In this document: positions 50,783-60,733 of the stretch, one piece after another
Numbering within the stretch: the first letter of the stretch is position 1
Layout: each line of letters opens with the position of its first letter
Source: Neorhizobium sp. SOG26
Lineage (GTDB): Bacteria > Pseudomonadota > Alphaproteobacteria > Rhizobiales > Rhizobiaceae
Direction of reading: 5' to 3'
Length of the DNA stretch: 64,000 nucleotides
Assembly: GCF_003491345.1 (NCBI RefSeq)
Contig: NZ_CP025512.1
Location: forward strand, 1,674,001 to 1,738,000
Program-made: the position numbers and the translations under genes
Notes under the pieces: generated by a model
What the model was told of the DNA's origin: nothing
The model's database searches: none
Seen by the model: the letters and a program-made list of their open reading frames with translations, nothing else

Positions 50783-51928
50783 TCAGAAGCAGTCGAGGAA
50801 GAGTGCCTTGGTGTTCTCCAGCGTCATCGGCACAGGATTGCCGCCGCAGCTCGGGTCCTCCATCGCCATCGCCGTCAGTTCATCGATTCGGTCCTGCGCG
50901 ATTCCCATCGCGGTGAGGTTCTCGGGCACGCCGAGTTCAGCGCGCAGCGACAGGACATACTGGTAGAAGCCGTCGAAGCCGCCCTCGATGCCGAGATAGG
51001 CCGCCGCACGGGCGATCTTGTCTTCGATCGCCGGACGGTTGAAACGCAGCACCATCGGCATCACGACGCCGTTCGTCATGCCGTGATGGGTGTTGTAGAC
51101 GGCCCCGATCGGATGCGACAGCGAGTGGATCGCGCCAAGCCCCTTCTGGAAGGCAACGGCGCCCATGGCAGCCGCGGCCATCATGTTGGTGCGTGCCTCG
51201 ATATCCTGGCCGTGCTTGAAGGCGCGCGGCAGGAATTCCTTCACCAGGCGCATGCCTTCCAGCGCAATGCCGCCCGACATCGGATGGTAGAAGGGCGAGC
51301 AATAGGCTTCCAGGCAGTGGGCGAACGCGTCCATGCCGGTGCCGGCGGTAATCGCCTTCGGCATGCCCACGGTCAGTTCCGGATCGCAGATTACGACGCC
51401 CGGCAGGAGCTTCGGATGAAAGATGATCTTCTTTACATGCGTTTCGGAGTTGGTGAGAACCCCTGCCCGGCCGACTTCCGACCCCGTGCCAGCCGTGGTC
51501 GGCACCGCAACGATCGGCGCGATCTTGGCGGCATCAGCGCGGGTCCACCAGTCGCCGATGTCTTCAAAATCCCAGACCGGACGGGTCTGGCCCGCCATGA
51601 AGGCGATCAGCTTGCCGAGGTCGAGGCCGGAACCGCCGCCGAAGGCAACGACGCCGTCGTGGCCGCCATCCTTGAAAGCCTTGATACCCGCTTCGAGGTT
51701 CTTCTCGTTCGGGTTCGGATCAACCTCGGAGAAAATCGCCCGGCCAAGCCCTGCCTCTTCCAGCACGTCCAGCGCATGTCCGGTGATGGCCATGGACGCC
51801 AGTCCCCGGTCGGTGACCAGCAGCGGCTTCGTCAGCCCGAGCGTCTTGCAGGCATCCGCCAGTTCCTTGATGCGGCCTCGGCCGAGCTTGACGGCGGTCG
51901 GATAGCTCCAGTTCGCGACGATATTCAT
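50783..51928 (-). CDS. Iron-type (group III) alcohol dehydrogenase
   Basis: A 381-residue group III dehydrogenase. The NAD-binding GGGSGLDLGK segment follows the N-terminal fold, and metal ligands are in GMDAFAHCLEAY (Asp and His) and AIHSLSHPIGAVYNTHHGMTNG (two His). The TTAGTGSE motif is typical. It oxidises a primary alcohol or reduces an aldehyde. ATG 51928 overlaps the aldehyde dehydrogenase stop (ATGA), so the two are co-translated. In this cluster it would act on an alcohol whose aldehyde is passed to the ALDH. Confidence 0.92.
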   Translation of the reverse strand: MNIVANWSYPTAVKLGRGRIKELADACKTLGLTKPLLVTDRGLASMAITGHALDVLEEAGLGRAIFSEVDPNPNEKNLEAGIKAFKDGGHDGVVAFGGGSGLDLGKLIAFMAGQTRPVWDFEDIGDWWTRADAAKIAPIVAVPTTAGTGSEVGRAGVLTNSETHVKKIIFHPKLLPGVVICDPELTVGMPKAITAGTGMDAFAHCLEAYCSPFYHPMSGGIALEGMRLVKEFLPRAFKHGQDIEARTNMMAAAAMGAVAFQKGLGAIHSLSHPIGAVYNTHHGMTNGVVMPMVLRFNRPAIEDKIARAAAYLGIEGGFDGFYQYVLSLRAELGVPENLTAMGIAQDRIDELTAMAMEDPSCGGNPVPMTLENTKALFLDCF

Positions 51929-53310
51929 TTCGTGACTTTCTTGAGATGGTAGGATTTTGGCCGGGTCAGGTTGTGGAAGCCGAGGACAGACAGCGAGCCG
52001 CCGCGGCCCGTTTCCTTCACGCCGGTCCAGACAAGCGCCGGATCGAGGTAATCGGCACGGTTCATGAAGACGGTGCCGGTTTCGAGCTGCTCGCCGATGC
52101 GGTTGGCGCGCTCGACGTCCGGCGTCCAGAGCGAAACCGTCAGGCCATAACGGCTGTCGTTCATCAGCGAGATCGCTTCGTCGTCGCTCTTGACCTTCAT
52201 GATGCCGACGGCCGGGCCGAAGGTTTCTTCGCGCATGAACGCCATGGAGTGGTCGACATCGACCAGGATCTGCGGCGCAAGATAAGCGCCACCGTCATCG
52301 GCCGGGAAGAGCTTCGGGTCCACCAGCGCCTTGGCACCCTTGGAAACCGCGTCGCCGATCTGCTCGCGCACGACCTTGGCAAAACGCTTGTGCGCCATCG
52401 GGCCCAACGTGGTTTCCTTGTCGAGCGGGTTGCCGAGCTTGTAGTTCGAAACCCATGCGACCGACTTCTCGACGAACTGGTCGTAGAGCGACTCGTGCAC
52501 ATAGATGCGCTCGATACCGCAGCAGCACTGCCCGGAGTTGAAGGTCGCACCGTCCATCAGCGTGTCGACGGCGGCGTCAAGATCGGCGTCCTCCATCACA
52601 TAGCCAGGGTCCTTGCCGCCGAGCTCCAGCCCGAGGCCGGTGAAGGTGCCGGCTGCTGCACGCTCGATCGAGCGGCCGCCTTCCACCGATCCGGTGAAGT
52701 TGATGAAGTTGAACGAGCCTTCCGCGATGAGCTTCGCCGTCGTGTCATGGTCCAGGAAGATATTCTGGAATACGTCTTCGGGAACGCCAGCCTCGATAAA
52801 GGCGCGCACCAGCCGCTCGCCGACCAGCAGCGTCTGCGAGGCATGCTTGATCATCACGGCATTGCCGGCCATCAGCGCCGGGGCAACCGTGTTGATCGCC
52901 GTCATGTACGGATAGTTCCAGGGCGCGATCACGAAGACGACGCCATGCGGCTCGCGCTCAATGCGGCGCTCGAAGCTTGCGCTGTCTTCGATGCGAAGCG
53001 GCGCAAGAGCATCAGCGGCAATCGAAGCGACGTAGTTGGAGCGTTCGTTGAAGCCCTTGAACTCGCCGCCGTAACGCACCGGGCGGCCCATCATCCAGGC
53101 GAGTTCCGGCACCACTTCGTCGGCCATTTCGTTGAGGTGGGCGACACCCTTCAGCACGAGCTGGACACGCTCCTCGAGCGGCCGTTTCGCCCAGGCCTTC
53201 TGCGCCTTGCGTGCCCGTCCCACGGCCTCGGCCGCCGCCTCGAACGAGGCTGCCGGGCGCTCGGCGTAAACCGAGCCGTCGACCGGCGATATGCATTGGA
53301 TCATTGTCAT
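51925..53310 (-). CDS. NAD(P)-dependent aldehyde dehydrogenase
   Basis: A 461-residue ALDH. The catalytic glutamate is Glu229 in LELGGKDPG and the nucleophile is Cys263 within SGQCCCGIERI. The APWNYPYMTAIN segment is typical. The start at 53310 (MTMIQCISPVDG) has AGGA nine bases upstream; the longer frame is not supported. It starts 38 nt after the glutamine-synthetase-like gene stop and overlaps the alcohol dehydrogenase. ALDHs in gamma-glutamylation pathways oxidise a gamma-glutamyl aminoaldehyde. Confidence 0.92.
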   Translation of the reverse strand: MTMIQCISPVDGSVYAERPAASFEAAAEAVGRARKAQKAWAKRPLEERVQLVLKGVAHLNEMADEVVPELAWMMGRPVRYGGEFKGFNERSNYVASIAADALAPLRIEDSASFERRIEREPHGVVFVIAPWNYPYMTAINTVAPALMAGNAVMIKHASQTLLVGERLVRAFIEAGVPEDVFQNIFLDHDTTAKLIAEGSFNFINFTGSVEGGRSIERAAAGTFTGLGLELGGKDPGYVMEDADLDAAVDTLMDGATFNSGQCCCGIERIYVHESLYDQFVEKSVAWVSNYKLGNPLDKETTLGPMAHKRFAKVVREQIGDAVSKGAKALVDPKLFPADDGGAYLAPQILVDVDHSMAFMREETFGPAVGIMKVKSDDEAISLMNDSRYGLTVSLWTPDVERANRIGEQLETGTVFMNRADYLDPALVWTGVKETGRGGSLSVLGFHNLTRPKSYHLKKVTK

Positions 53311-53348
53311 GATCTCTATTCCTGTTGCTTGCTGGAAATGCGTGGTCT

Positions 53349-54719
53349 CTACACTCTCTCGAAGCCGCGTGCCACTTCCCAATCCGTCACACGGCGATCG
53401 TATTCTTCCTGTTCCCACTGGCCGGCGCGCACGTAGTGGTCAACCACGTCGTCGCCGAAGGCTGAGCGCAGCAGCGACGAGTTGTTGAGCAGCTCAACCG
53501 CGTCGCGCAGCGTCTTGGGGATCTCGCGGATGCCCTTCACGCCATAGGCGTCGCCGACGAACTCGTCCTCGAGCTCCATCTTCTTCTCGATGCCGTCGAT
53601 GCCGGCTGCCAGCAGTGCCGCCATGGCAAGATAGGGATTGAGGTCCGAGCCGCCGACGCGGCATTCGACGCGAATGCCCTTGGTGCCTTCGCCGCAAAGC
53701 CGATAACCGGCGGTGCGGTTGTCCTTCGACCAGATCGCCTTCGTCGGCGCAAACGTGCCGGCCATGTAGCGCTTGTAGGAGTTGATGTAGGGCGCCAGGA
53801 AATAGGTGATCTCGTCGGCATGGCTCAACAGCCCGGCCATGTAGTTCCGCATCAGGTCCGACATGCCGTGCTTGCCGGCCTTGTCGAAGAACAGCGGCGT
53901 CTTGCCGTCGGCGCTCCAGAGCGACTGGTGGATATGCGACGAGCTGCCGGCAGCGCTGGCATTCCACTTGGCGAGGAAGGTGATGGCCTTGCCCTTCGAC
54001 CAGGCGATTTCCTTGGCCGCCGTCTTGATGACGGCATGCCGGTCGGCCATCGTCAGCGCATCGGCATAACGAACATTGATCTCCTCCTGGCCGGCAGACG
54101 CCTCGCCCTTGGAGCATTCCACCGGGATGCCGGCACCCTGCAACCCGTTGCGGATGGCGCGCATCACATCCTCTTCCTTGGTGGTCTGGAAGATGTGGTA
54201 GTCCTCGTTGTAGCCGCTTGCGAGCTTCAGGTTGCGATAGCCTGCCTCGCGCGCCTGGTCATAGGTCTGGTCGAACAGGAAGAACTCGAGTTCGCTTGCC
54301 ATGAACGCCTTCATGTTCATGGCCTCAAGCCGGGCGATCTGCTTCTTCAGCACGGCGCGCGGTGAATGCGGCACTTCCTCATGCGTATGATGGTCGAGCA
54401 CATCGCAAAGCACGAGCGCCGTTCCCTCCACCCACGGCAGCTTGCGAAGGGTCGAAAGGTCCGGCTTCATGATATAGTCGCCGTAACCGAGCTCCCAGCT
54501 CGTCGCCTTGTATCCGGAGACGGTTTCCATCTCCATGTCGGTCGCCAGCAGATAATTGCAGCTATGCGTTTCTGCGAAGGCGCTTTCGACGAAATATTCG
54601 GCATGGAACCGCTTGCCCATCAGCCGGCCCTGCATATCCACCAGGGCTGCAACCACGGTGTCGATGCGTCCCTCGGCAACATCCTTTTTCAGTTCGTCGA
54701 AAGTGTAGTGGGCGCTCAT
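53349..54719 (-). CDS. Glutamine synthetase-like gamma-glutamyl-amine ligase (GlnA/PuuA superfamily)
   Basis: A 456-residue GS-fold enzyme. Conserved segments include MASELEFFLFD (metal ligands), ECSKGEASAGQEEINVRYADAL, AGSSSHIHQSLW and the C-terminal RVECRVGGSDLNPYLAMAALLAAG. It lacks the length and context of the housekeeping GlnA and resembles the ligases that join glutamate to amines, such as PuuA (gamma-glutamylputrescine) or IpuC. Co-located dehydrogenases and the amidohydrolase support that reading. The amine is not known. Confidence 0.88.
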   Translation of the reverse strand: MSAHYTFDELKKDVAEGRIDTVVAALVDMQGRLMGKRFHAEYFVESAFAETHSCNYLLATDMEMETVSGYKATSWELGYGDYIMKPDLSTLRKLPWVEGTALVLCDVLDHHTHEEVPHSPRAVLKKQIARLEAMNMKAFMASELEFFLFDQTYDQAREAGYRNLKLASGYNEDYHIFQTTKEEDVMRAIRNGLQGAGIPVECSKGEASAGQEEINVRYADALTMADRHAVIKTAAKEIAWSKGKAITFLAKWNASAAGSSSHIHQSLWSADGKTPLFFDKAGKHGMSDLMRNYMAGLLSHADEITYFLAPYINSYKRYMAGTFAPTKAIWSKDNRTAGYRLCGEGTKGIRVECRVGGSDLNPYLAMAALLAAGIDGIEKKMELEDEFVGDAYGVKGIREIPKTLRDAVELLNNSSLLRSAFGDDVVDHYVRAGQWEQEEYDRRVTDWEVARGFERV

Positions 54720-54847
54720 GCGTCGCTTCCGTCCCTTGCTGATACATGGAAACGCGGCCCGCCGAATGCGGTCCGCGCCATTGGTTCTATCGATGCGGCC
54801 TGTTTGTTTTTCGTCGTTGACCGCAGCTTGCTGTTCCCCGCGAGGTC

Positions 54848-55624
54848 TTATCCGTGGATCTTCGTTAGGCTCTCCCGCAATAGCCCGCTGAGGAAATCTG
54901 CCGCAACGTCCTGGCCGTTGTCATCAGCGATAAGGTCATTCCTGATCTCGATCATGACGTTCAGCAACCCAGCCGGCAGGGCATGGAGTTCAAGCGTATG
55001 CGTAACCCCATCTGCTGGTCCATAGGGTTCATTGCGCATGACGCGATATAAGCTCGTATCGGCGGCCGCTTCCAGCATCCCGTCGGCGAGACGCGCATCC
55101 GTATCGTGCAGGATGCCGATCTCGACCTCTCGCTGCTTGCCGAAGTAGACCGGCGTGAAGCTGTGGACCGTCACCAGCACCGTCTGCCGCCCGGCGTCGC
55201 GGCGTGCAGCAATCTCGTCGCGGATGCGCCCCTGGAAAGGCAGGTAAAGCCCCGTCGTGCGCCGAGAGCGCTCGGCTTCGGTTAGGTTCTCGTTGCCGGG
55301 AATGCGGAAGACTTCCGAAACATCGCGAATGGCTGCGGGCGATTCCGGCGGCCTGTTGCAGTCATAGAGCAGCCGCGAAAAGCGCTGATGGATCAGCGTC
55401 GCATCAAGGCTTTTCGACATGCGGCGCGCTACATCCAGTGCGCCTGGGTCCCAGGCGATGTGCGAGGTGAGCGCGTCTTGTGAGAGCCCCAGATCGCCAT
55501 ATCGCTCGGGCAGCCGCAGCGACGCATGTTCACAGACGAGCAGCACGTCGCTTTTGCCGGATGGATTATCCACCGCGACGGGTTCGCCGTCCGCTTCCGT
55601 GAACATGTCCGATTCGATCGACAT
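54848..55624 (-). CDS. N-formylglutamate amidohydrolase family protein
   Basis: A 258-residue zinc hydrolase of the HutG-type FGase family. The N-terminal VLLVCEHASLRLP segment has the first metal ligands, and LLYDCNRPPESP and VLVTVHSFTPV carry other family motifs. In HutG the substrate is N-formylglutamate, but no hut genes are here. In a gamma-glutamylation pathway it could release glutamate from the final gamma-glutamyl product; the bond differs from that in formylglutamate, so this is only a hypothesis. ATG 55624 is chosen over a TTG at 55636. It is 128 nt ahead of the GS-like gene. Confidence 0.85.
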   Translation of the reverse strand: MSIESDMFTEADGEPVAVDNPSGKSDVLLVCEHASLRLPERYGDLGLSQDALTSHIAWDPGALDVARRMSKSLDATLIHQRFSRLLYDCNRPPESPAAIRDVSEVFRIPGNENLTEAERSRRTTGLYLPFQGRIRDEIAARRDAGRQTVLVTVHSFTPVYFGKQREVEIGILHDTDARLADGMLEAAADTSLYRVMRNEPYGPADGVTHTLELHALPAGLLNVMIEIRNDLIADDNGQDVAADFLSGLLRESLTKIHG

Positions 55625-55655
55625 CCGCGCATCCAATGAAGGTGAAGGAAATTGA

Positions 55656-55676
55656 GTGAAGAAGAGAATTCTTCAC
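55656..55676. promoter_or_regulatory. 21-bp inverted repeat, probable operator in divergent promoter region
   Basis: GTGAAGAA (55656-55663) and TTCTTCAC (55669-55676) are perfect complements around GAGAA. It sits 32 nt upstream of the amidohydrolase start, with TTGACG on the minus strand at 55688-55693 as a candidate -35 box. Confidence 0.6.
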
Positions 55677-55701
55677 TTTCCGGCCCTCGTCAATGTCGGT
55701 C

Positions 55702-55756
55702 TGAAAATTTCTCTTCATCAACACCGTTGACACCTGTTGTAAAACTTCTTTTAACT
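55702..55756 (+). promoter_or_regulatory. Candidate promoter and TGAA-N8-TTCA site upstream of rpiR-type gene
   Basis: TTGACA (55727-55732) is a consensus -35 box; 18 nt downstream TTAACT (55751-55756) is a weak -10 box. TGAA (55702-55705) and TTCA (55714-55717) upstream of it form a second dyad resembling RpiR-type operators. Confidence 0.4.
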
Positions 55757-55795
55757 CTCGTCACAAACCGGCGAAGACCGGAGGGAACAGCTTTC

Positions 55796-56686
55796 GTGCC
55801 AGCCACTGCGCGCACCGTGTCGGATGTTATTCGTGTTCGTTACGACAGCTTGACGCGCGCAGAAAAACAACTGGCCGACAGCCTATTGGAGAACTATCCA
55901 GTGTCGGGCCTCGGCAGCATCACAGTGATCGCGGAGAACGCGGGTGTCTCGACACCCACCGTCGCGCGCATGGTGCAGAAGCTCGGCTACCGTGGCTACC
56001 CGGAATTCCAGTCGCACCTGCACCAGGAACTGGAAGCCACCATTTCCGGCCCGATCGCCAAGCATGACCGCTGGGCGACCAACGCGCCGGGCACGCATAT
56101 CCTCAACCGTTTTGCCGACGCGATCACCGCCAACCTGCGCGGAACCCTCTCGGACCTTGATACGAGCACGTTCGAGCAGGCGGCAGCGCTTCTGCAGGAC
56201 CGGGAGCGGAGCATCTATTTCGTCGGCGGGCGCATTACCGGCGCGCTTGCCGAATACTTCTTCACCCACATGCAGGTGATTCGGCCCAAGACGACGCTGA
56301 TCTCCAACAATTCCAGTTCCTGGCCGCAGCATGTGCTCAACATGAAGCGCGGCGATGTCTTGGTGATCTTCGACATCCGCCGCTACGAGCAGGAGATGGC
56401 AACCCTTGCCGAGGTCGCCAAGGCGGCCGGGGTCGTGATCATCCTCTTCACGGATGTCTGGGCGTCGCCGGTTGCCAAGAATGCCCAGCATACGTTCAAG
56501 GTCCGCATCGAGGCGCCATCCGCCTGGGATAGTTCCGTCATCACGCTGTTTGTCGTGGAGGCGCTGATCGAAGCGGTGCAGAGCGCCTCCTGGGAGGAGA
56601 CCCGCGAACGCATGAATTCTCTCGAAGGCTTGTTTGAACAGAGCCGGCTCTTCCGTCGCCCAAATCGTCAAACACGTCTCGACTAA
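55796..56686 (+). CDS. RpiR-family (HTH-SIS) transcriptional regulator
   Basis: A 296-residue regulator with an N-terminal HTH_6 domain (about residues 1-80, ENAGVSTPTVARMVQKLGYRGYPEF) and a C-terminal SIS domain (about 120-255, RERSIYFVGGRITGALAEYF). The SIS domain senses a small molecule, often a phosphosugar, but RpiR homologues next to non-sugar pathways are known. GTG 55796 has GGAGGG ten bases upstream; the earlier part of the open frame covers the operators and is not supported. It lies at the divide between the catabolic genes and the ABC operon and probably controls both. Confidence 0.9.
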   Translation: MPATARTVSDVIRVRYDSLTRAEKQLADSLLENYPVSGLGSITVIAENAGVSTPTVARMVQKLGYRGYPEFQSHLHQELEATISGPIAKHDRWATNAPGTHILNRFADAITANLRGTLSDLDTSTFEQAAALLQDRERSIYFVGGRITGALAEYFFTHMQVIRPKTTLISNNSSSWPQHVLNMKRGDVLVIFDIRRYEQEMATLAEVAKAAGVVIILFTDVWASPVAKNAQHTFKVRIEAPSAWDSSVITLFVVEALIEAVQSASWEETRERMNSLEGLFEQSRLFRRPNRQTRLD

Positions 56687-56697
56687 GATATGGAGCT

Positions 56698-56716
56698 GTG
56701 TGAAAAGTCGTTACAC
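56698..56716. promoter_or_regulatory. Inverted repeat GTGT-N11-ACAC before the ABC operon
   Basis: GTGT (56698-56701) and ACAC (56713-56716) flank an 11-nt spacer within the 148-nt gap between the regulator and the binding-protein gene. Short arms, so weak on its own. Confidence 0.3.
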
Positions 56717-56834
56717 TGGAGTGGTTTATCAGCGATAGCTCACGTTCCGCACTGTCACATAGCTTACATGAACTGGCTCTACGAGTCGCGCCGAACCAAC
56801 ACCCAAGGCTTTGCCTGAAACCTAGGAGGATACC

Positions 56835-57938
56835 GTGCCCAACAAGATCCAACGCCTTCTCTCTCTGACGACGGCCATGGTCGTCGCCTCGTCGGCGATC
56901 GCTGCCGCCGAGCCGAGCGCCGAGCTTATCGAAGCCGCCAAGAAGGAAGGATCGCTGACGACGATCGCGCTTCCGCACAGCTGGTGCGGCTATGGCGATA
57001 TCATCGCAGGCTTCAAGGCCAAGTACGGCATCGAGATCAACGAACTCAACCCGGATGCAAGCTCCGGCGATGAAATCGAAGCCATCAAGGCGAACAAGGG
57101 CAACAAGGGCCCGCAGGCTCCGGACGTGATCGACGTCGGTCTTTCCTTTGGCCCCTCCTCCAAGGCTGAAGGCCTGATCCAGCCCTACAAGGTCTCGACC
57201 TGGGATACGATCCCGGACGACGCCAAGGATGCTGAAGGCTACTGGTACGGCGACTACTACGGCGTTCTGGCCTTCATCGCCAACACCGACATCGTCAAGG
57301 ATCTTCCGAAGGACTGGAAGGACCTCACCAAGCCTGAATACGCCAACGCCGTTGCACTCGCCGGTGACCCGCGTGGCTCGAACCAGGCCGTGCAGGCTGT
57401 TTACGCCGCCGGCCTCGCTGCTGGCGAAACCGACCCGGCCAAGGCTGGCGAAGCAGGCCTGAACCTGTTTGCGGAGATCAACAAGGCCGGCAACTTCGTG
57501 CCCGTCATCGGCAAGTCCGCATCGCTCGCACAGGGCTCGACCCCGATCGTCATCGCCTGGGACTACAACGGTCTATCCTGGCGCGACACGCTGAACGGCA
57601 ACCCGCCGCTTGAAGTCGTGGTTCCGGAAAACGGCGTTGTCGCCGGCGTTTACGTCCAGGCGATCTCCGCTTACGCGCCGCACCCGAACGCTGCCAAGCT
57701 CTGGATGGAATACATCTACTCGGACGAAGGCCAGCTCGGCTTCCTGAAGGGCTATTGCCACCCGATCCGCTTCAACGATCTTGCCAAGAACAACAAGATC
57801 CCGAAGGAAATGCTGGACGCCCTGCCGCCGGCAGCGTCTTATGAAAAGGCAAAGTTCCCGACCCTCGAAGAGCAGGACAAGGGCAAGACCGCCATCACCA
57901 CCAAGTGGGATAGCGTCGTCGGCGCCAACGTGCAGTAA
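56835..57938 (+). CDS. ABC transporter periplasmic binding protein (SBP_bac_6-like)
   Basis: A 367-residue secreted binding protein with signal peptide cleaved around AIAAA-EP. The type II fold of iron/polyamine/aminoethylphosphonate-type binding proteins is evident from the layout: EAAKKEGSLTTIA near the start, WYGDYYGVLAFIANTDIV in the middle and AKLWMEYIYSDEGQLGFL late. No iron-ligand tyrosine pair typical of FbpA is clear, so an organic ligand is more likely. GTG 56835 has AGGAGG five bases upstream. First gene of the importer operon. Confidence 0.9.
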   Translation: MPNKIQRLLSLTTAMVVASSAIAAAEPSAELIEAAKKEGSLTTIALPHSWCGYGDIIAGFKAKYGIEINELNPDASSGDEIEAIKANKGNKGPQAPDVIDVGLSFGPSSKAEGLIQPYKVSTWDTIPDDAKDAEGYWYGDYYGVLAFIANTDIVKDLPKDWKDLTKPEYANAVALAGDPRGSNQAVQAVYAAGLAAGETDPAKAGEAGLNLFAEINKAGNFVPVIGKSASLAQGSTPIVIAWDYNGLSWRDTLNGNPPLEVVVPENGVVAGVYVQAISAYAPHPNAAKLWMEYIYSDEGQLGFLKGYCHPIRFNDLAKNNKIPKEMLDALPPAASYEKAKFPTLEEQDKGKTAITTKWDSVVGANVQ

Positions 57939-57947
57939 TAAGAATCG

Positions 57948-57971
57948 GCCTCTCCGCTTTGGCGGAGAGGC
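57948..57971 (+). terminator. Intra-operon hairpin after the binding-protein gene
   Basis: GCCTCTCCGC, loop TTTG, GCGGAGAGGC form a perfect 10-bp stem starting nine bases after the stop. It is followed by TTCCTTTCC, not a full T-run. Such hairpins raise binding-protein mRNA over permease mRNA. Confidence 0.7.
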
Positions 57972-58001
57972 TTCCTTTCCTCCGACCGTGACGCCGGATA
58001 C

Positions 58002-58877
58002 ATGAACGCAGCTTCCTCGCCCATCATCGACCGCCGAACAGTGATCGACTGGCTCGGCATCGTGCCGTTCATGATCTTTGCGCTGATGTTCCTGATCGTC
58101 CCGACGCTCTACCTCGTCGTGGGCGCGTTCTTCACGCCCGACGGGCACCTGACGTTGGAGAATATCGCCGGCCTCTTCACGCCGACCATCCTCAGCGCCT
58201 ACTGGATCAGTATCAAGGTTTCGCTTGCCTCCTCGCTGGGTGGCGCGCTGATCGGCTTCTTCCTGGCCTGGGCGGTGGTGCTGGGCGGCCTGCCCTCCTG
58301 GATCCGCTCGAGCCTCCTGACCTTCTCGGGCGTCGCTTCGAACTTCGCCGGCGTGCCGCTTGCCTTCGCCTTCATCGCGACGCTTGGTCGAACGGGCCTC
58401 GTCACCGTCTTCCTGCGCGAATCGTTCGGCTTCAACCTCTATTCGACCGGCTTCAACCTGCTGTCATTCTTCGGGTTGACCATCACCTACATGTTCTTCC
58501 AGATCCCGCTGATGGTGCTGATCCTGACACCGGCGCTCGACGGGCTGAAGAAGGAATGGCGCGAAGCCTCCGAAATCCTTGGCGCCTCGACCTGGCAATA
58601 CTGGCGCATGGTGGCGCTGCCGATCCTGTGGCCGAGCCTGCTTGGCACCAGCCTTCTGCTGTTTGCCAATGCCTTCGGCGCCATCGCCACGGCCTATGCC
58701 CTGACCGGCTCGTCGCTCAACATCGTGCCGATCCTGCTTTACGCGCAGATCCGCGGCGACGTGCTGCACAACCCGAACCTCGGTTACGCGCTGGCGCTTG
58801 GCATGATCGTCATTACCGGCCTCTCCAACATCCTATACATCTGGCTGCGGATGCGCGCAGAACGGTGGCCGAAATGA
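58002..58877 (+). CDS. ABC transporter permease (PotB-like)
   Basis: A 291-residue inner membrane permease with about six membrane segments. The EAA loop that contacts the ATPase is EWREASEILGASTWQYWRMV. Its ribosome site is weak, so translation may depend on the upstream gene. Its stop overlaps the second permease (ATGA). Confidence 0.92.
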   Translation: MNAASSPIIDRRTVIDWLGIVPFMIFALMFLIVPTLYLVVGAFFTPDGHLTLENIAGLFTPTILSAYWISIKVSLASSLGGALIGFFLAWAVVLGGLPSWIRSSLLTFSGVASNFAGVPLAFAFIATLGRTGLVTVFLRESFGFNLYSTGFNLLSFFGLTITYMFFQIPLMVLILTPALDGLKKEWREASEILGASTWQYWRMVALPILWPSLLGTSLLLFANAFGAIATAYALTGSSLNIVPILLYAQIRGDVLHNPNLGYALALGMIVITGLSNILYIWLRMRAERWPK

Positions 58878-59662
58878 AGCCCGCAAAGATCCTCGCCTGG
58901 GTCGCGATCGCCGTCGGCATCATCTACTTCTTCGTGCCGCTGCTCGGCACGTTCGAGTTCTCGCTGCGCATGCGGCGCGGCGAATATTCCTTCGATGCCT
59001 ATGGATCGGTTTTCTCCGATGCCGCCTTCCGGGCGACCTTCGGTTACTCGATGCTGATGGCGCTGTTCACCATCATCTTCGGCATGCTGCTCGTGGTCCC
59101 GACAGCCTACTGGGTGCGGTTGCGCCTGCCGCAGATGCGGCCCGTGGTTGAGTTCCTGACGCTGATGCCGCTCGTCATCCCGGCAATCGTCGTCGTCTTC
59201 GGTTACCTGCGCCTCTACAATTCCTCGTCCTACATCCCCTTCACCGGCTCGATCATGGGGACGAATATCCTGCTCGTGATGTCGTATATCACGCTTGCGC
59301 TGCCCTACATGTACCGCTCGGTTGATACCGCGATGCGCACGATTGACGTGCGCACCCTGACGGAAGCGGCCGAAATTCTGGGCGCGAAGTGGCCGACGAT
59401 CATGTTCCGCTGCATCTTTCCCAATGTCATGTCCGGCGTCCTGTCAGGCGCCTTCATCACCTTCGCCATCGTCATGGGCGAGTTCACCATGGCCGCGCTG
59501 CTCAACCGGCCGGCCTTTGGTCCGTATCTGCAGTTGGTGGGCGCCAACAAGGCCTATGAGCCTTCCGCGCTTGCCGTCATCGCGTTTGCAATCACCTGGC
59601 TTTCGATGGGGCTGATCCAGCTCGTGACCCGTTTCAGCAAATTGGCGCCGTCGCGCGCCTAA
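58874..59662 (+). CDS. ABC transporter permease (PotC-like)
   Basis: A 262-residue permease with six membrane segments and the EAA loop TEAAEILGAKWPTIMFRCIFP. ATG 58874 overlaps the first permease by four bases; the open frame's earlier starts lie inside that gene. It forms the heterodimeric channel with the upstream permease. Confidence 0.92.
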   Translation: MKPAKILAWVAIAVGIIYFFVPLLGTFEFSLRMRRGEYSFDAYGSVFSDAAFRATFGYSMLMALFTIIFGMLLVVPTAYWVRLRLPQMRPVVEFLTLMPLVIPAIVVVFGYLRLYNSSSYIPFTGSIMGTNILLVMSYITLALPYMYRSVDTAMRTIDVRTLTEAAEILGAKWPTIMFRCIFPNVMSGVLSGAFITFAIVMGEFTMAALLNRPAFGPYLQLVGANKAYEPSALAVIAFAITWLSMGLIQLVTRFSKLAPSRA

Positions 59663-59671
59663 GGAATATTG

Positions 59672-60733
59672 ATGTCGTTCCTCGTACTCGAAAACTTAAG
59701 GAAGAGCTTCGGCCAGATCCAGGTCGTCAAAGACTTCAACATGTCCATCAACAAGGGCGAGTTCGTGTCTTTCCTTGGACCATCAGGCTGCGGCAAGACC
59801 ACCGTCCTGCGCATGATCGCCGGCTTCGAGACGCCGAGCGATGGCACGATCACGATCAACGGCACGAACCAGACCAGGCTCAAGACCAACCAGCGCAATA
59901 TCGGCATGGTCTTCCAGGCCTATGCGCTGTTCCCGAACATGAACGTGTTCGACAACGTCGCCTTCGGGCTGAAGGTCGCCGGCAAGCCGAAGGCCGAGAT
60001 CGAAAGCCGCGTGCGCGAGATGCTGAAGCTGATCTCGCTTGACCACCTTGCCGACCGCTACCCCTACCAGATGTCCGGCGGCCAGCAGCAGCGCGTGGCG
60101 CTTGCCCGTGCGCTGGCACCGAAGCCGCAGGTGCTGCTGCTCGACGAGCCGCTTTCGGCACTCGATGCCAAGATCCGCGTGTCGCTGCGCGAAGAAATTC
60201 GGCAGATCCAGAAACAGCTCGGCATCACCACCGTCTTCGTGACCCACGACCAGGAGGAGGCGCTGTCGATCTCCGACCGGATCGTGGTGATGAACGCCGG
60301 ACGCGCCGACCAGATCGGCACGCCGTCGGAAATCTACAACCGCCCGGCGACGCGCTTCGTCGCCTCCTTCGTCGGCACGCTCAACATCATCGAGGCGACG
60401 GTGATCGATCCCGCCGCCAACACGGTGAAGGTTGGCGACAACACGATCATCCTGCGCGAGTCGATCGGTGCGCTGAAGGGCGGCGACAAGCTGTCGATCG
60501 CGCTGCGCCCGGAGGCCGGCTCCCTGTCGGAAAGCGCCCGGGGCGACACGGCGCTCAGCGGCAAGGTGATTTCCTCGCATTTCCTCGGTTCGGTCATCCG
60601 CACCAAGGTGGATGTCGGCGGCAACCAGATCTCCTTCGACATGTTCAACTCGCCGGATGCGGTGATGCCGCGCGAAGGCGAGATGCTGACGTTGCGCTTC
60701 AATGCCAGCGATTTCCTGATCGTGCGGGAGTAA
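59672..60733 (+). CDS. ABC transporter ATP-binding protein (PotA/UgpC type)
   Basis: A 353-residue ATPase. Walker A is GPSGCGKTT (residues 36-44), the signature MSGGQQQRVALARAL, Walker B LLLDEPLSALD and the switch histidine in VFVTHDQEEA. A C-terminal TOBE-like domain (about 270-353) suggests polyamine/iron/sugar-type importers. ATG 59672 has AAGGAA five bases upstream. Last gene of the operon. Confidence 0.94.
   Translation: MSFLVLENLRKSFGQIQVVKDFNMSINKGEFVSFLGPSGCGKTTVLRMIAGFETPSDGTITINGTNQTRLKTNQRNIGMVFQAYALFPNMNVFDNVAFGLKVAGKPKAEIESRVREMLKLISLDHLADRYPYQMSGGQQQRVALARALAPKPQVLLLDEPLSALDAKIRVSLREEIRQIQKQLGITTVFVTHDQEEALSISDRIVVMNAGRADQIGTPSEIYNRPATRFVASFVGTLNIIEATVIDPAANTVKVGDNTIILRESIGALKGGDKLSIALRPEAGSLSESARGDTALSGKVISSHFLGSVIRTKVDVGGNQISFDMFNSPDAVMPREGEMLTLRFNASDFLIVRE

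Follow-up and report, generated by a model that had tools for sequence, protein, structure and literature searches.

A probable ethanolamine gamma-glutamylation operon beside a divergent ABC importer in Neorhizobium sp. SOG26

For Agrobacterium tumefaciens C58 and Chromohalobacter salexigens, a pathway that uses ethanolamine was reportedly described by Vetting in 2015. Pathway genes of both organisms are also cited in the account of Phaeobacter sp. MED193, whose cluster MED193_10021-10056 is described as holding an RpiR regulator, a gamma-glutamylglycine amidohydrolase, the tripartite ATP-independent periplasmic (TRAP) transporter EtoVWX, an ethanolamine gamma-glutamylase and two dehydrogenases (PMC10132767). 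According to the same account, the phosphatidylethanolamine head group raises the levels of the enzymes and of the TRAP binding protein, which binds ethanolamine with a Kd of 7.9 uM (PMC10132767). The same four enzyme families are listed for C. salexigens (PMC9397018), and the same steps are predicted for Streptomyces (PMC6529630). Here we compare these systems with a nine-gene locus of Neorhizobium sp. SOG26, at positions 50783-60733 of a 64,000-nucleotide stretch (the window; contig NZ_CP025512.1, positions 1,674,001 to 1,738,000), in which an operon of four enzyme genes faces a divergently transcribed RpiR regulator and an ATP-binding cassette (ABC) importer.

The minus-strand operon very probably specifies the already known breakdown of ethanolamine through gamma-glutamylation, its catalytic steps being predicted from homology. 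The glutamine synthetase-like (GS-like) ligase would use ATP to join ethanolamine to the gamma-carboxyl group of glutamate, the iron-type alcohol dehydrogenase (Fe-ADH) would oxidize the gamma-glutamyl-ethanolamide to the aldehyde, and the aldehyde dehydrogenase (ALDH) would convert that aldehyde into gamma-glutamylglycine. Cleavage of the latter to glutamate and glycine would fall to an Atu2144-type amidohydrolase of the N-formylglutamate amidohydrolase (FGase) family, so that glutamate would be recycled and glycine gained. The RpiR protein most likely controls the enzyme operon via an inverted repeat at 55655-55677. We assign the enzyme half to this pathway on the strength of the published descriptions, as far as these set out the gene sets (PMC10132767, PMC6529630, PMC9397018), and of the Atu2144-type FGases. 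An original prediction, made from the DNA sequence of the window, had proposed glutamate ligation, oxidation of an alcohol to aldehyde to acid, and hydrolysis, with ethanolamine among the candidate substrates; both the chemistry and the substrate are in line with what has been published and with the homology to known pathway members. It knew of no rhizobial system described with this set; in fact the pathway is already published, also within the rhizobial family, such genes being reported as demonstrated in A. tumefaciens C58 (PMC10132767). The whole set is likewise present in records under the names Sinorhizobium meliloti and Rhizobium leguminosarum. A record labelled S. meliloti pSymB (L104, CP090106.1) is 3.7 Mb long; the usual pSymB is far smaller than this, and the label may be wrong.

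All nine genes are intact, with frames open throughout and orientations as originally proposed (Table 1), and all nine products match Pfam models at or above the curated cut-offs. The ALDH gene, whose PF00171 match was scored on a frame read from 53307, probably starts at the ATG at 53310, which would make it overlap the ADH gene by four bases. With a probable RpiR start near 55796, the spacer that separates the divergent FGase and RpiR genes measures about 160 bp. The ligase scores 665 bits against PDB 11zs and 649 bits against 5dm3, which we take to be the C. salexigens ligase, and 184 bits against the next solved synthetase. The amidohydrolase matches PDB 2odf, named Atu2144, at E 7.7e-101; the FGase of a whole-set locus in Agrobacterium arsenijevicii is closer still to Atu2144 (521.9 bits, E 2.1e-156). 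Identification of the amidohydrolase as the N-formylglutamate deformylase HutG can be dismissed (23.6 bits against a TIGR02017 cut-off of 278.75), as can that of the ligase as PuuA (200 bits against an NCBIfam cut-off of 650). None of the four enzymes reaches the cut-off of any NCBIfam model listed (for the ALDH, among the best 25 of 44 models), which explains the vague automatic gene names. For genes annotated 'glutamine synthetase family protein' or 'N-formylglutamate amidohydrolase' in records of Rhizobium, Sinorhizobium and Agrobacterium, the locus suggests a likely function.

Table 1. Features of the locus, in window coordinates; enzyme roles are proposals based on homology.
Feature	Position	Strand	Family or motif	Remark
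Fe-ADH	50783-51928	minus	PF00465 + PF25137	proposed gamma-glutamyl-ethanolamide dehydrogenase
ALDH	51925-53310	minus	PF00171	proposed gamma-glutamyl-acetaldehyde dehydrogenase
GS-like ligase	53349-54719	minus	PF00120	proposed ethanolamine gamma-glutamylase
Empty transporter slot	54720-54847			128 bp; filled in 27/27 same-genus loci
FGase-family amidohydrolase	54848-55636	minus	PF05013	proposed gamma-glutamylglycine amidohydrolase
Candidate RpiR operator	55655-55677		inverted repeat, 9-bp arms	
RpiR-family regulator	55796-56686	plus	PF01418 + PF01380	start inferred; open frame 55652-56686
Pho-box-like element ahead of importer	56752-56769	plus	11/14 matches to CTGTCAT-N4-CTGTCAT	imperfect
ABC importer solute-binding protein	56835-57938	plus	PF13343	closest solved structure 5t1p
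ABC importer permease 1	58002-58877	plus	PF00528	26.4 bits, exactly its cut-off
ABC importer permease 2	58874-59662	plus	PF00528	
ABC importer ATPase	59669-60733	plus	PF00005 + PF08402	

Genes of PF00120, PF00465, PF00171 and PF05013 thus stand in one cluster, as part of a recurrent arrangement. The original prediction had considered that homologues of the cluster might never co-occur in other genomes; the nine-gene set is found together in 26/26 same-genus loci fetched around the ligase, and this recurrence places the arrangement beyond chance. The genus sample comprised 36 genomes (our strain and 35 others), of which 27 hold the ligase at E <= 1e-100 and a 28th (G012) holds a ligase cut at a contig end; at the same threshold the ligase is present in 31/289 genomes of the class, a draw that includes our strain. 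The likeness to Phaeobacter sp. MED193 lies in the RpiR, amidohydrolase, ligase, ALDH and gamma-glutamylethanolamide dehydrogenase genes gathered in one cluster; the difference is that its cluster contains the TRAP system EtoVWX, as described there, whereas the window has the divergent ABC importer (PMC10132767). The GlnA4 cluster of Streptomyces coelicolor (SCO1610-1615) is by description similar in its ligase, dehydrogenase, ALDH and FGase-family protein and differs in transport, which is unlike that of the window and in some Streptomyces involves a permease (PMC6529630). Agrobacterium has an Atu2144 that the window FGase matches, and loci that share the same genes, the RpiR regulator and the ABC importer; however, the seven importer-bearing Agrobacterium loci examined carry an EAT-type permease gene between the amidohydrolase and ligase genes, a slot that is empty in the window.

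The content of this slot varies among relatives. In 27 same-genus loci (the 26 and that of G012) it holds an APC2 amino-acid permease in 15, an EAT type in eight and a TRAP system in four, and is never empty; the respective figures for 56 importer-bearing loci from a scan of named organisms (80 loci kept of at least 594 matching stretches) are 38, 13 and 5. Against the ethanolamine permease model, two of the EAT proteins reach 374 and 369 bits, just below the cut-off of 381.75, and one slot TRAP binding protein of a relative matches 4uab, presumably Csal_0678 with ethanolamine, at E 3.1e-179. The cluster also occurs with no transporter in the slot on plasmids of Aminobacter, Paracoccus pantotrophus and Ruegeria conchae, and three named loci from metagenome-assembled genomes have slot gaps of 77-82 bp. 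At the start of the R. conchae plasmid operon (L219, 5546-12045), the place of RpiR is taken by a DeoR-type regulator together with a gene of the inositol-monophosphatase family, and a sulfatase-like hydrolase gene lies nearby; the operon is possibly a version fed by phosphoethanolamine.

Another candidate transporter lies elsewhere in the genome of our strain. Contig C3 encodes a TRAP system of the EtoX family, whose solute-binding protein (SBP; 203558-204634, or 9056-10135 of L217) matches 4uab at E 1e-134 and has an open reading frame, although one stop was flagged in the match. The genes next to it, identified by visual inspection, are FAD-oxidoreductase-like and FGGY-kinase-like, with no ethanolamine enzymes among them. 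Within the genus, the EtoX family at E <= 1e-100 is confined to this copy and the four genomes with a TRAP slot. Compared with 41 TRAP proteins of the slot type, the C3 protein deviates at 10/122 near-invariant columns, which makes its ligand uncertain; leave-one-out departures among the slot proteins have a median of 0, with 18 for two distant ones. Given this second system, it would be unsafe to regard the ABC importer as the sole uptake route of the strain.

The distribution of ethanolamine ammonia-lyase (Eut) also bears on the substrate. No EutB match was found in the genome of our strain, in a search whose E. coli control matched, so Eut can be set aside as the route of this strain. Eight relatives (L092-L099) have lost the enzyme genes and RpiR, yet retain an EAT-type permease gene and the importer SBP gene between the same flanking genes; the whole importer is seen in seven of them, and the G014 contig breaks off behind the SBP gene. 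Full-length EutB is encoded in 8/8 of these enzyme-less genomes versus 5/28 of those with enzymes, G001 having only a fragment of 87 positions (Fisher 4e-5, a value that treats genomes as independent). This pattern suggests that EutBC possibly replaced the gamma-glutamyl enzymes and hence shared their substrate. Under the thresholds applied, the 13 EutB regions fetched, 16 kb each, contained no match to EAT, APC2 or TRAP.

A further hint comes from glycine metabolism. The enzymes of the beta-hydroxyaspartate cycle, encoded by bhc genes, use glycine and glyoxylate. A search of the loci collected from L024 onward placed BhcB and BhcC genes next to the cluster in four cases, three of which also have BhcA; three of these four cluster copies are plasmid-borne, and all four are devoid of a slot transporter. 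Such neighbours favour glycine as the product, and hence ethanolamine over longer amino alcohols. The four loci (L191, L220, L221, L222), where bhc genes follow the cluster, form a candidate mobile module leading from ethanolamine to central metabolism.

Several observations weigh against assigning the operon to ethanolamine. The usual in-operon transporter is missing from the 128-bp slot of the window; the genome of our strain has no EAT protein over the cut-off, the best scoring 65.7 bits, and no APC2 match, an empty result that is weak by itself; the Fe-ADH stays below cut-off for each of the 16 NCBIfam models listed, the best being 4-hydroxybutyrate dehydrogenase; enzyme set and EutB coexist in 5/28 genus genomes; and a flanking-gene tree of 35/36 genomes (G008 was dropped, its flanking genes wanting) yields a single loss of the enzymes and a single independent pair, so that the association between EutB and the enzymes counts as one event. 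The same chemistry might act on another short amino alcohol, such as 3-aminopropanol, 2-aminopropanol or a substituted ethanolamine, to yield beta-alanine, alanine or another product, since the amine is not fixed by sequence alone and no curated model names the ligase. We consider this very improbable in view of the homology to ethanolamine-linked members, the glycine-using bhc genes beside four copies of the cluster, and the presence of EutB in enzyme-less relatives. A reading of the ligase as a common glutamine synthetase paralogue, with no pathway encoded by the cluster, would fit its membership of PF00120 and yet is hardly credible: the protein falls below the NCBIfam cut-offs for canonical GlnA (266 versus 429 bits) and type III glutamine synthetase (250 versus 470 bits), scores far higher against 5dm3 and 11zs than against the solved synthetase ranked after them, and is linked to FGase, ALDH and ADH genes in 26/26 genus loci. 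Ethanolamine gamma-glutamylation remains our strongly favoured assignment for the enzyme half.

Regulation appears to differ between the two halves of the locus. The repeat in the FGase-RpiR spacer, with perfect 9-bp arms in the window, is a candidate RpiR operator, conserved as it is between the divergent genes. The ten bases AGAATTCTTC occur in 81/85 of the FGase-RpiR spacers linked to the ABC importer and in 0/28 of those without it; matches of at least 15/23 to the whole repeat are found in 81/85 ABC-linked spacers (6/425 shuffles) and 8/28 without ABC (1/140 shuffles). The conserved core is shorter than the repeat of the window because the outer arms are imperfect in most relatives. In the RpiR-SBP spacers the repeat reaches the same limit in 3/85, not above the 11/425 of shuffles. 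For these and the following counts, five shuffles were made per region, keeping base composition only.

The importer promoter instead carries a block resembling the Pho box, whose consensus is given as CTGTCAT-N4-CTGTCAT (PMC3131613) and which the window matches at 11/14 positions. Matches of at least 11/14 occur in 35/102 regions upstream of the SBP gene versus 5/510 shuffles, the best matches not all sharing one place or strand; for eight other genes, with 85 to 150 regions apiece, such matches number 0 to 6 each. In an alignment of the RpiR-SBP spacers the block is conspicuous, and 61/86 of these spacers contain the motif CTGTCA. As related promoters are not independent, this enrichment indicates conservation and not PhoB binding. 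If the Pho box is real, the importer would answer to phosphate, as does the aminoethylphosphonate importer AepXVW, for which phosphate-linked regulation is described in Pseudomonas putida (PMC8316502, PMC9311074).

The resemblance to AepXVW extends to the PF13343 class of SBP (PMC8316502), which also includes PhnS and sugar-phosphate binders. Nevertheless, the SBP of the window has 26% identity over 255 residues to a presumed AepX beside phnW, phnA and phnY in S. meliloti ml66, and PhnW over the cut-off was found neither in our strain nor in any of the 24 genus genomes examined; on these grounds aminoethylphosphonate import was rejected as the simplest reading of the SBP. No phn gene adjoins the importer at the locus.

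What the importer carries is the testable question that the locus singles out. The original prediction took it to be the pathway's own importer, a claim that is unproven: a different transporter usually resides within the enzyme operon, the importer is also present where the enzymes are absent, and its promoter was not found to carry the candidate RpiR operator. In the literature searched, which left most subscription journals outside its scope, this ABC importer was not found named with the cluster. We give an even chance to its being a companion that brings in ethanolamine or an ethanolamine-bearing compound. In the scan of named organisms it stands beside the enzymes and RpiR in 56/80 loci, all under names of Rhizobiaceae or 'Rhizobiales bacterium', and not in the other 24, some of which lie on short contigs; it was beside the enzymes in 0/41 order and class loci.

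That the importer is a mere neighbour serving an unrelated nutrient is somewhat doubtful, even though its SBP is present at E <= 1e-60 in 36/36 genus genomes, including the eight without enzymes, and apart from the enzymes outside the genus (G039, G045, G050), its promoter lacks the candidate RpiR repeat, and its position outlasts several changes of slot transporter. Against this stand its recurrent place beside the enzymes and RpiR in the named loci and, in the eight enzyme-less genomes, its continued adjacency to an EAT-type permease gene. Alternatively, a phosphate-regulated importer could take up an ethanolamine phosphoester (phosphoethanolamine or glycerophosphoethanolamine), the enzymes using the freed ethanolamine, which we regard as unlikely. 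The conserved Pho-box-like element and the SBP class shared with AepX, PhnS and sugar-phosphate binders speak for it, as do phosphate-type neighbours in six of nine plasmid regions with the importer and no enzymes: a Na/Pi cotransporter adjoins it in one, PhoH in two (both Thioclava), an alkaline-phosphatase-family gene in one and an inositol-monophosphatase-family gene in two. Three of the nine, however, have no such gene adjoining, the cluster in the window contains no phosphatase, the Pho box matches at just 11/14, and the many aromatic or acidic residues among the invariant SBP positions suit a cation at least equally well.

We speculate, as a decidedly tentative and rather improbable scenario, that ethanolamine catabolism became coupled to the scavenging of phosphate in the Rhizobiaceae: a PhoB-switched PF13343 importer with a new specificity, for ethanolamine or its phosphoester, would have become fixed beside an RpiR-controlled operon whose slot transporter (TRAP, EAT or amino-acid permease) was freely swapped, and was lost in this strain. 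Since ethanolamine derives from membrane phospholipids, the locus is relevant to the recovery of nitrogen, and perhaps also of phosphorus, from dead cells by root bacteria. Lastly, the importer's SBP and permease proteins in the same-genus loci (L024-L049) fall into two groups by identity to those of the window, permease 1 being about 67-72% or 86-92% identical; the grouping is at odds with that of the flanking genes and suggests exchange of the importer between lineages.

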